A stretch of DNA of 64,000 nt from Chamaelirium japonicum (taxonomy: Eukaryota; Streptophyta; Magnoliopsida; Liliales; Melanthiaceae): the NCBI GenBank assembly GCA_947650365.1, contig OX393552.1, forward strand, positions 18,440,351-18,504,350, read 5' to 3'. Of the stretch, positions 41,930 through 44,694 are shown piece after piece. A program made the position numbers and the translations under genes. Positions within the stretch are counted from its first letter, which is position 1, and each line of letters begins with the position of its first letter. The notes under the pieces are model-generated. The model saw only the letters and a program-made list of their open reading frames with translations, searched no databases and was not told the origin of the DNA.

Positions 41930-41962
41930 TATATATATATATATATATATATATATATATAT
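41930..41962. repeat. (TA)n left border of the palindrome array
   Basis: About 16 TA units between unique sequence and palindromic element B. Confidence 0.95.
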
Positions 41963-42356
41963 GAGGAATGGGATGCTGCCTATCAAAGCAGCATTTTTTG
42001 CTGCTTTGAAACATTGTTTGACCATCCTAGAAGTTTTGGAATTTGATGAAATTTGGTGAGGGTGTTGCCTAGGGTAAGATGATCATCCTCACAAATTTTC
42101 ATCAAATTCCAAAACTTCTAGGGGGTTCAAATGGTCGAAGCAAAATCAGTCGTCTGCAGTCACCGTTAAAATCTGCAGTATTTTGCTTCGACCATTTGAC
42201 CCTTTTAGAAGTTTTGGAATTTGATGAAAATTTGTGAGGATGATCATCTTACCCTAGACAACACCCTCACCAAATTTCATCAAATTCCAAAACTTCTAGG
42301 ATGGTCAAACAATGTCTCAAAGCAGCAAAAACGCTGCTTTCATAGACAGCATCCCG
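41963..42356. mobile_element. (TA)n-bounded palindromic element (copy B)
   Basis: A near-complete palindrome of about 394 bp with ends gggatgctgcctatcaaagc and gctttcatagacagcatccc. The end hairpin is caaagcagca...tgctgctttg. The core is the same as in copies A, E and F: gaagttttggaatttgatga and its complement around gatgatcatcctcac, in a double hairpin. Non-coding. The right side passes into (TC)n and (TA)n. Confidence 0.88.
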
Positions 42357-42424
42357 TTTCTCTCTCTCTCTCTCTCTCTCTCTATATATATATATATATA
42401 TATATATATATATATATATATATA
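42357..42424. repeat. (TC)n-(TA)n microsatellite between elements B and C
   Basis: A CT run of about 13 units, then about 20 TA units. The same CT/GA-to-TA transition is found beside copies A, E and F. Confidence 0.95.
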
Positions 42425-42572
42425 GAAATGCTTGAATGCGGCATGCGGTAAGTGCGGCACCTACCGCATGCCGTCTGATGCACTGCTGTGTGCATGCGAT
42501 GCACGCAGCGCGTGCATCAGACGGCTGCGGTGCTGTGCCGCACGTACCGCATGCCGCAGCATAGCATGCCCC
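42425..42572. mobile_element. Small (TA)n-bounded palindromic element without core (copy C)
   Basis: A 148-bp palindrome made of nested GC-rich hairpins: gcatgcggtaagtgcggcac on the left against the complement of gtgccgcacgtaccgcatgc on the right, with an inner gtctgatgcac/gtgcatcagac pair. It lacks the gaagttttgg core seen in its neighbours, so it consists only of end-hairpin type sequence. Confidence 0.85.
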
Positions 42573-42602
42573 TATATATATATATATATATATATATATA
42601 TA
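42573..42602. repeat. (TA)n between elements C and D
   Basis: About 15 TA units shared as border by two palindromes. Confidence 0.95.
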
Positions 42603-43158
42603 GGGGAGCGTGATTTTGTATGCCCATGCATTGAAGGTTTCAATGCATGCTCATTTATTAACATATATAGAGGTTTCCAAATTTGCTAATTTTTTATGGA
42701 GATGATATCTATGTTGAGTTGATCATCCTTACAAAAAATTAGCAAGTTCTAATACTTCTAAGCATTTCAAATAAGCTCATCAAATTAAAGATTGAATTAG
42801 ACAGCTGATAAAGCTTCCAATATTTTGATGGATCTAGATATTTCAGAATTTAGTGATTTTTGGTGGATATGCTATCTATAGCAAGATGATCACACTCATA
42901 AAAAATCAGCAAATTCTGAAATCTCTATGTGCATCAAATTGATAGAAGTTGTATCGTATGTCCATTTCAATCATTAATTTGATAAGCTTATTTGAAATGC
43001 TTAGAGGTTTCAAAACTTGCTGATTTTTACTGAGGATGATCATCACAACATAGATATCATCTCCATAAAAAATTAGCAAATTTGAAAACCTCTATGCATG
43101 TTAATAGAGGAGCATACATTGAAGTCTTTAATGCACGGGCATACAAAGTCATGCTCCC
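42603..43158. mobile_element. (TA)n-bounded palindromic element (copy D, long form)
   Basis: About 556 bp. Its ends are inverted repeats: ggggagcgtgattttgtatg on the left against the complement of catacaaagtcatgctccc on the right. The end hairpin is tgcattgaaggtttcaatgca. The interior has four or more hairpin half-stems of the type aaaaattagcaagttctaat, each next to a gatcatc word. One segment aligns with the core of copy B at about 75 percent over 52 positions by eye, so this is a diverged relative with an enlarged interior. Confidence 0.82.
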
Positions 43159-43275
43159 ATATATATATATATATATATATATATATATATATATATATAT
43201 ATATATATATATAGAGAGAGAGAGAGAGAGAGAGAGAAGAGAGAGAGAGAGAGAGAGAGAGAGAGGAATGTTACA
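43159..43275. repeat. (TA)n-(GA)n compound microsatellite between elements D and E
   Basis: About 27 TA units followed by GA units to about 43264, then a short non-repeat stretch (gaatgttaca) before palindrome E. Confidence 0.95.
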
Positions 43276-43644
43276 GTGAGTTATGAGCTACGGAAAGAGA
43301 AAATGAGCTAAGCTCATTTTGACCACCCAAGACGTTTTAGAATTTTGTAAAAATTGATGGGTGTGTTGTCTAGGATAACATGATCATCCTCACCAATTTT
43401 TAAGGAATTCCAAAACTTCTAGGGTCATCAAACGATAGAAGCTTTATCCACCGTCCGTAGTAACCGTTAATTTTGCTTCTACCATTTGATGACCCTAGAA
43501 GTTTTGAAATTCTTTGAAAATTGGTGATGATGATCATGTTACCATAGACAACACACCCACCAATTTTCATAAAATTCCAAAACAAATTTTAGGATGGTCA
43601 AAATGATCGTAGCTCATTTTCTCCTTCCGTAGCTCATAGCTCAC
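43276..43644. mobile_element. (TA)n-bounded palindromic element (copy E)
   Basis: Arms start gtgagttatgagctacgg and end ccgtagctcatagctcac. The end hairpin is aatgagctaagctcatt. The core follows the A/B/F pattern (agttttgaaattctttgaaa, gatgatcatg, acaacacacccaccaa) but is diverged. About 369 bp, non-coding. Confidence 0.87.
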
Positions 43645-43788
43645 TATATATATATATATATATATATATATATATATATATATATATATATATATATATA
43701 TATATATATATATATATATATATATATATATATATATATATATATATAGAGAGAGAGAGAGAGAGAAAGAGAGAGAGAGAGAGAGAGG
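43645..43788. repeat. (TA)n-(GA)n compound microsatellite between elements E and F
   Basis: About 52 TA units, then GA to about 43788. Confidence 0.95.
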
Positions 43789-44188
43789 AATGAGATGCTG
43801 CCTATCAAAGCAGCGTTTTTTGCTGCTTTGATACATTGTTTGACCAACTTAGAAGTTTTGGAATTTGATGAAATTTGGTGAGGGTGTTTTCTAGGGTAAG
43901 ATGATCATCCTCACAAATTTTCATCAAATTCCAAAACTTCTAAGAGGGTCAAATGGTCGAAGCAAAATCTGCAAAATCTGCAGTCACCGTTAAAATCTGC
44001 AGATTTTGCTTCGACCATTTGACCCTCTTAGAAGTTTTGGAATTTGATGAAAATTTGTGAGGATGATCATCTTACCCTAGACAACTCCCTCACCAAATTT
44101 CATCAAATTCCAAACCTTCTAGGATGGTCAAACAATGTATCAAAGCAGCAAAAAACGCTGCTTTGATAGGTAGCATCACATTCCTCAC
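43789..44188. mobile_element. (TA)n-bounded palindromic element (copy F)
   Basis: About 400 bp and closest to copy B: the same end hairpin (caaagcagcg...tgctgctttg) and the same double-hairpin core. Ends gaatgagatgctgcctatc and gataggtagcatcacattcc are inverted repeats. B and F differ by scattered substitutions and a short internal repetition (caaaatctg twice, near 43965). Confidence 0.88.
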
Positions 44189-44291
44189 ATATATATATAT
44201 ATATATATATATATATATATATATATATATATATATATATATATATATATATATATATATATATATATATATATATATATATATATATATA
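44189..44291. repeat. (TA)n between elements F and G
   Basis: About 51 TA units. Confidence 0.95.
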
Positions 44292-44648
44292 GGAATAGTG
44301 ATACATTGCGGTCGGTAACGTGTGGCACCTTATTCCAGCGTATTTTTGGATTTTTTTTGGGGATTGATCACCTACCCTTGGATAGCACACACAAAAAATT
44401 TCAGTTCGATCCAGGACCTGTAGGCCGTCCAAATGTGTTAATCAAAATGATGACAAAAATGAACGACCGATAAAAGTCGATCACATTTGGACGACCTACA
44501 TGTCTTGGATCGAGCTGAAATTTTTTGTGTGTGCTATCCAAGGGTGGGTGATCAATCCCCAAAAAAAAAAAAAAAAATTCCAAAAATACCCCGGAAGGGG
44601 GGGCCGCATGTTAAGGTTGCACATTACCGGCCACAATGTATCACTACT
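44292..44648. mobile_element. (TA)n-bounded palindromic element (copy G, diverged family)
   Basis: About 357 bp. Ends atagtgatacattgcggtcg and the complement of ccacaatgtatcactactat pair. The arms carry tggatagcacacacaaaaaa, tttcagttcgatccagg and gatcacctaccct. By eye, a 39-position stretch matches the B core at about 60 percent without gaps, including ACCCT, AAATTTCA and TAGG in the same order. A distant relative is likely. Confidence 0.82.
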
Positions 44649-44694
44649 ATATATATATATATATATATATATATATATATATATATATATATAT
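44649..44694. repeat. (TA)n right border of the palindrome array
   Basis: About 23 TA units, followed by atgtatcaaccgc. That phrase resembles the end of element G (aatgtatcac), so a further truncated end may lie here. Confidence 0.9.

Follow-up and report, generated by a model that had tools for sequence, protein, structure and literature searches.

A row of six TA-bounded palindromic elements in Chamaelirium japonicum, most likely foldback MITEs of the Mutator-like superfamily

Layout of the array

We investigated a 64,000-nucleotide stretch of the Chamaelirium japonicum genome, hereafter the window (C4:18440351-18504350, in a 1.52-Gb assembly of 3,253 contigs, whose pieces C1 to C12 measure 70-137 Mb each), in which six palindromes, B to G, stand in series. 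They lie nearly where an earlier note on this DNA had placed them, and their spacers consist solely of (TA)n, or of (TA)n adjoining (GA)n/(TC)n, the GA parts having a few impurities. We read this array as a row of non-autonomous foldback miniature inverted-repeat transposable elements (MITEs) aimed at TA-rich sites, most likely belonging to the Mutator-like element (MULE) superfamily, and we give this reading a probability of roughly 85%.

From left to right, with every element given on the + strand and every tract read from the sequence, the array begins at its outer left border, a (TA)n tract at 41930..41962. Element B (41963..42358), a nested palindrome of 396 bp, has the left end GAGGAATGGGATGC; its right end, read inward in several copies, is GAGAAACGGGATGC, and in the window copy this end merges into (TC)n. 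A (TC)n-then-(TA)n tract (42359..42424), common to B and C, leads to element C (42425..42572), a 148-bp palindrome of a young family with the ends GAAATGCTTG and GGGGCATGCT, which is followed by (TA)15 (42573..42602), common to C and D. Element D (42603..43158), a palindrome of 556 bp, has the ends GGGGAGCGTG and GGGAGCATGA and is separated by (TA)n then (GA)n (43159..43265) from element E (43266..43644), a 379-bp palindrome with B-related arms, whose right end is shorter than that of other E copies by about a dozen bases. Next come (TA)52 then (GA)n (43645..43786); element F (43787..44188), a 402-bp copy of the B family; (TA)51 (44189..44291); element G (44292..44648), a 357-bp palindrome with the ends GTAGTGATACATTG in most copies; and the outer right border, (TA)24 (44648..44695). 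The boundaries proposed in the earlier note hold overall, except that E starts at about 43266, not 43276, and F at about 43787.

Aligning the two halves of each palindrome against each other gave scores of 44-178 for the six, compared with maxima of 14-27 in 200 shuffles of each, and the aligned arms are 94% (B), 85% (C), 83% (D), 87% (E), 96% (F), and 78% (G) identical. In B, E, and F, the sequence of each arm contains a further inverted repeat, so that these three are nested foldbacks. The palindromes, 148-556 bp long, represent five families, with B and F forming one (inverted identity of 95-97%, arm to arm) and the arms of E being related to those of B/F at 78-85%. The window has 28 stop-to-stop frames that are 130 codons or longer, of which a single one reaches the array, extending from the end of G to the adjoining flank. 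The six are thus short inverted-repeat elements without coding capacity.

Dispersed copies, their borders, and their neighbors

We searched each element against its own genome and scored 40 candidates per search, these being the best-scoring matches with the window copy included, a sampling that under-represents old copies and those in complex DNA. First-look candidates numbered 4,025 for D, 2,026 for B, 2,066 for G, 2,078 for C, and 3,368 for E, figures that are not verified copy numbers. The 40 scored copies of B are 98-100% identical, each spanning 395 or 396 of 396 bases; 39 of the 40 for C are 99% identical over all 148 bases, with the window copy at 100%; the best 40 places for D are the window copy and 39 others at 88-90%; the scored E copies (40) are 92-93% identical; and the others among the 40 for G are 87-91% identical, some being partial. 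Secondary matches on the opposite strand reflect the palindromes themselves. Because each family is found at full length elsewhere in the genome, the units of the array are not products of one assembly join.

Loci around B, D, G, and C copies were then analyzed, all of them selected for holding an element. Our counts of borders, segments, GA tracts, and neighbors leave aside loci L001, L009, L017, and L065, which repeat the window array, and still include two near-duplicate loci (L058 and L023; 2 of 105 copies), both of which are dropped from the cluster and oriented-parity counts. For 105 full-length copies the flanks were available on both sides, and 102 of these have, on each side, a dinucleotide tract no more than 12 bp away, whereas random window intervals of the same lengths do so in 107 of 50,000 draws. 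A TA-bounded palindromic neighbor accompanies 95 of the 105 (93 of 103 after removal of the two near-duplicate loci), with 40 having one on both sides. These counts support two points of the earlier note, namely, its prediction that TA tracts flank most copies and its proposal that insertion was repeated, with neighbors sharing one tract; the latter is further supported by the parity link described below.

Splitting the loci at their TA tracts yielded 286 TA-bounded segments (80-1500 bp) in 69 sources, of which 252 are palindromic; clustered at 80% identity over 70% of length, they form groups whose largest have 69, 48, 15, 13, 10, 9, 9, 7, and 6 members. Runs of 2-11 consecutive TA-bounded palindromes, with varied neighbors, occur in 58 of the 69 sources, the longest (11) lying within one 3.4-4.6-kb locus. 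Since runs of at least six are present in 8 of the 69 sources, the window included, the window array is a typical, ordinary specimen of a phenomenon that seems to be very common in this genome. Two pairs of near-identical arrays lie at separate places, L006/L058 (both on C9) and L019/L023 (C120 and C86), with aligned pieces about 95-99.8% identical over some 3 kb and with differing TA tract lengths. They are whole arrays carried either on haplotype copies or on recently duplicated segments; we rejected the pairs as insertion polymorphisms, as the same elements align in both members.

None of the 105 copies has an internal (TA)6, so that an insertion targeted to TA would find no site within the elements. 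Consistent with this, and with the earlier note's statement that no palindrome interrupts another, the sample held no convincing nested pair; two weak split candidates, at 69-78% identity, are taken as pairs of diverged relatives.

Target duplication and empty sites

Of 20 additionally sampled E copies, L101 alone has no microsatellite on either side; a few others are bordered by CA, GA, or TC tracts with no TA in the 40 bases viewed. In L101, which sits in complex sequence, an exact 10-bp repeat, CTCCAATGAG, stands at the ends GACGAATG.../...CATTCCTC, and this duplication, a single case, is of MULE-type length. The earlier note had taken copies lying outside (TA)n as evidence against its insertion scenario; one such copy does exist, yet it carries a 10-bp duplication like those of known relatives. 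No copy of B, C, D, F, or G in the sample lies outside microsatellites on both sides.

We searched for unoccupied sites with the joined flanks (210+210 bp) of L012, an isolated B copy with tracts of 84 and 143 bp. From 1,551 first-look candidates, 40 were scored, giving 40 matches, two of which are the flanks of L012 itself. The other 38 of 38, among those scored, form a single alignment across the join with no more than about 22 bp extra, which is not an unbiased rate, as a long tract between the flanks would break the alignment in two and lower its rank. Ten of these 38 junctions were read, and they contain a short stretch such as TATGTATAT or TATTCCTAT, with a TA run longer than TATAT in 0 of the 10. 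The junctions read at this site thus do not bear out the earlier note's prediction of empty (TA)n loci, and part of the tract may therefore arise with or after insertion. Either L012 entered a short TA-rich target whose tract grew later, or the tract had already grown in that copy of the repeat; this single empty-site set suggests that the targets may in part be made by the elements themselves. For the window array itself, joined flanks (10 candidates, 12 alignment rows) retrieved no empty copy in the assembly, and they matched only themselves and partial repeats of the left flank.

A flank shared by L033 (1976-1988), L018 (2825), and L063 (2572) was also considered as an empty site and was rejected, as it appears to be the end of another repeat. 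There, a small hairpin and CTAG, then T, which we take to be a Helitron-like 3' end, abut (TA)n; these repeat ends are 99% and 83% alike, and a different TA-bounded element stands behind each.

GA/TC tracts and element ends

At ends that directly abut (TA)n, the first base of the element is G in 324 of 378. Moving outward from 504 palindromic-segment ends, the first tract is TA at 386, TC at 118, and GA at none, and beyond a TA tract the sole next tract type is GA. GA is the last part of 98 outward tracts; beyond it lies another palindromic TA-bounded segment in 74 cases and a TA-bounded segment of any kind, no more than 40 bp away, in 81, the remainder meeting other sequence or the locus end; most GA-ending tracts are therefore the neighbor's own. 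In element C, an outward (TC)n follows 16 of 27 readable left ends (GAAATG), whereas it follows 0 of 29 right ends (GGGGC; p = 3.1e-7), and among young C copies 26 of 28 left ends have such a tract. This asymmetry, together with the near-absence of (TC)n from the ends of D, is most simply explained by growth of (GA)n from terminal GAG or GAA, rather than by a second target.

Phase of the flanking TA tracts

A target duplication hidden within a TA tract can still be read by its parity. After an odd-length duplication, the last tract base before the element and the first one after it are identical, and after an even-length duplication they differ. In B, 37 of 39 readable copies (44 in total) are odd, whereas random re-pairing of the ends averaged 20.1 and reached at most 31 in 20,000 trials. 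The B-like cluster 0, once oriented, has 48 odd copies (26 and 22 per phase) and 6 even ones. Odd parity likewise holds for cluster 5 (9/9), cluster 6 (6/7), cluster 7 (5/5), and cluster 8 (6/6), with both phases in each, so that 74 of 81 readable copies are odd when the five clusters are pooled; these clusters were chosen by us for this total, cluster 4 and the small clusters (one readable copy each) standing outside it. In D, parity is even in 8 of 10 readable copies, again with both phases (5 and 3). Copies of ambiguous orientation were dropped from the oriented counts (3 of 68 in cluster 0 and 8 of 48 in C), and unreadable copies were left uncounted (11 in cluster 0, 13 in C, 4 of 14 in D, and 2 each in clusters 6 and 7).

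The link between the two ends points to separate insertions, each with a duplication of fixed parity. The pooled odd and the D even parities are compatible with 9/11 and 8/10 bp, respectively, parity alone giving no length. Moreover, the phase of B does not follow its sub-lineages: the nearest neighbor has the same phase in 19.1 of 37 copies (18.3 expected), and across 5 informative columns the lowest p is 0.07. Since phase is independent of sub-lineage, the TA flanking B seems to be the target's, and not carried by the element.

Proposed mechanism

The observations on which our reading builds are the tract borders, the arrays, the lack of nesting in the sample, parity, the polarity of GA, one duplication, and one empty-site set. 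We propose that a transposase supplied in trans, probably that of a MULE, would insert the element into a TA run, with duplication of a short target (odd in length in most clusters, even in D, and 10 bp in one E copy). The TA on both sides of the inserted element would then lengthen by slippage, and each lengthened run would serve as a target for the next insertion, so that an end-to-end row would presumably be built up step by step. As the elements have no internal TA tract, they would not nest, and (GA)n tracts would expand, again probably by slippage, from element ends that start GAG or GAA.

Several results weigh against this reading. The scan of 18 frames (8 of the 28 in the window and 10 of 373 at the loci) identified no MULE domain: the window frames contain Gypsy-type domains, an RRM with a zinc knuckle, and PP2A B56, of which the Gypsy-type and PP2A B56 domains fit a plant, and the locus frames contain a hAT dimerization domain and copia-type domains, with seven having no match. 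A readable duplication is present in one copy alone, and the ten empty L012-type junctions read, being without long (TA)n, lend no support there to a prior microsatellite as the target. The reading is weakest in its lack of an autonomous partner and in having one readable duplication and one family of empty sites. Parity, too, has its exceptions, in that (i) 7 of 81 copies in the pooled clusters and 2 of 10 in D break their cluster's rule; (ii) cluster 4, with 3 odd and 2 even, is off the rule; (iii) all palindromic segments with two clean ends divide into 91 odd and 50 even of 141, C contributing much of the even share; and (iv) E and G are unreadable (0 of 22 and 1 of 11 copies readable), because (GA)n or degenerate ends mask the phase. 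Further, (TC)n is still found at 2 of 33 D ends, which are mostly GGGG. C is phase-locked, with AA in 25 of 26 readable copies at 99% identity or higher (29 in all), and re-pairing its ends revealed no link between them, because C has almost no phase variation.

Beside the hAT domain, we note that its frame (L028, 3093-4394, - strand) carries a hAT C-terminal dimerization domain and lies about 280 bp past a B/F-family pair; it is not a MULE, and any link to the array would be conjectural.

Alternative explanations

The phase lock of C suggests, tentatively, that two entry routes built the same arrays, which we consider unlikely, at perhaps one chance in several. B/F, clusters 5-8, and D (the last with another duplication length) would enter by cut-and-paste and reset their TA phase at each jump, whereas C would either carry its flanking TA along and enter through homology or depend on a transposase specific for one phase; new TA tracts would arise with every insertion, so that the arrays would feed their own growth. 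In the C cluster, A precedes G at both ends in 22 of 27 readable copies, and older C copies are more mixed (5 AA, 3 AT, 1 TT, and 1 TA among 10 readable). A phase-specific even duplication and a carried TA both fit C alike.

A model that dispenses with transposase altogether, put forward speculatively for the SaTar elements, has circles with microsatellite ends enter TA tracts by homologous recombination (PMC5907723). It accounts for microsatellites on both sides and for modular arrays without nesting, and the locking of C to one TA phase at both ends is as expected if flanking TA travels along. Nevertheless, we hold it to be improbable as a general explanation, since in clusters 0, 5, 6, 7, and 8 a given oriented end occurs in both phases with parity remaining odd, and the E copy L101 has a plain 10-bp duplication. 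For B in particular, carried TA would fix the phase of each lineage, and the independence of phase from sub-lineage speaks against the model.

Tc1/mariner-type elements, which duplicate a 2-bp TA and for which any TA tract would be a target, are a still poorer fit, and we think them quite improbable. Element C alone is compatible with them, having A before its left end and T after its right end, as a TA duplication predicts. A 2-bp duplication forbids the odd parity of the five pooled clusters, and B, odd in all but two readable copies, departs from the even parity of the Stowaway type; the predominant G at TA-abutting ends and the 10-bp duplication of L101 likewise argue against this origin.

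TA tracts are hard to assemble, and the array as a whole was found once, as would be expected if repeats had been falsely joined across such tracts. An artifact of this kind is nevertheless very improbable, given the runs of TA-bounded palindromes, with varied neighbors, in 58 of the 69 sources, and given that two array pairs (L006/L058 and L019/L023) recur nearly identically at places apart. Least credible of all is the earlier note's other suggestion, that slippage or template switching gave rise on the spot to both palindromes and TA tracts: template switching does readily affect palindromes, and TA/GA tract lengths do vary between copies, even at near-identical loci, yet this predicts neither the parity link between the ends of B copies nor the same elements, full length and with exact ends, at dozens of unrelated places, nor does it sit with the related empty sites of one B copy, and the dispersed copies with exact ends largely refute it.

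Relation to known elements

Micron of rice and TAFT of maize are MITEs or MULEs that reside in TA stretches. The array is an instance of the SaTar/mMITE/MiM phenomenon known from guayule, rice, pineapple, and carrot, as its elements have no coding capacity, are in most copies flanked by TA on both sides, and form linear arrays in which none interrupts another. SaTar elements (guayule, rice, sorghum, and citrus) are small non-autonomous inverted-repeat elements flanked by (TA)n (PMC5907723). The likeness extends to the occasional use of other microsatellites, to modular arrays of unrelated elements that do not interrupt one another, and to a minority of copies outside microsatellites, where there are 10-bp duplications (PMC5907723). 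The share of copies with a neighbor, 95 of 105 here, compares with 19-47% linked or fused in the guayule table, the scales being different, in that we counted any TA-bounded palindrome and the table counts catalogued families only (PMC5907723). The circle recombination model is tentative in that paper, and B of our array speaks against it.

In pineapple, two MITE families, the Ac-mMITEs, lie in (TA)n, with 46.1% of full-length copies in non-nested clusters (PMC8449440); compared by description, one array here holds at least five families. Outside microsatellites, Ac-mMITEs have 9/10-bp duplications (PMC8449440), and here 10 bp was found in one copy. Their (GA)n is mostly 5' and their (TC)n 3', with slippage from terminal GA/TC given as the cause (PMC8449440), so that the same view of an origin from element ends is taken there and here.

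MuTAnT of Medicago is a foldback of four similar segments with (TA)n borders; a few copies outside TA have 9-bp duplications, and its empty sites have fewer TA units than occupied ones, nine on average (PMC4486113). Our elements resemble it in the nested foldback structure of B, E, and F, (TA)n borders, a duplication outside TA, and empty sites with short TA. However, MuTAnT has a known autonomous MULE partner (PMC4486113), whereas the 18 frames scanned here gave no MULE domain, and the available parts of that paper describe no arrays. Tract growth after insertion is described for maize TAFT elements, as cited within PMC5907723, and in part for MuTAnT (PMC4486113), and carrot MiMs reside in TA stretches, with the means of their direction to TA tracts stated as unclear (PMC8227079). 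Likened by description, MiMs, Micron, and TAFT share with this array their residence in TA stretches.

The array phenomenon is therefore already in print, and what is new here is the parity test, the contrast of B, D, and C, and one empty-site set. The available parts of PMC5907723, PMC4486113, and PMC8449440 contain no phase or parity test that we could find, which is no proof of absence, and the words "phase" and "parity" do not occur in PMC8449440. Reading parity from TA phase is a simple test, usable on any genome with such elements, and here it sets B and others, which insert in either phase, apart from C, whose spread is phase-locked. It thereby bears on the entry route of microsatellite-bound MITEs, which is stated as unclear in PMC8227079 and for which circle recombination is one proposal (PMC5907723).

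Other features of the window

A seventh element, related to B, lies outside the array on the + strand at about 1191..1586, between (TA)73 (1044-1190) and (TA)10 (1587-1607), and is 92% identical to B over its middle 296 bases. The window has 11 TA tracts that are 20 bp or longer; 9 of them border array elements or this seventh element, and the other two, at 39575-39602 and 54585-54655, border none of these. Further strong palindromes with no TA tract of at least 20 bp at their borders, possibly MITEs of other types, are located at about 20200-20300, 58700-58780, and 62080-62180. The window also contains a Gypsy-type retroelement (7139-12714) with gag, protease, reverse transcriptase, and integrase domains; a 118-bp tandem repeat (16855-18220) of 11.6 copies, rich in ACCGATCGGT; and, about 2.4 kb to the right of the array, a frame for a PP2A B56 regulatory subunit (47102-48358).

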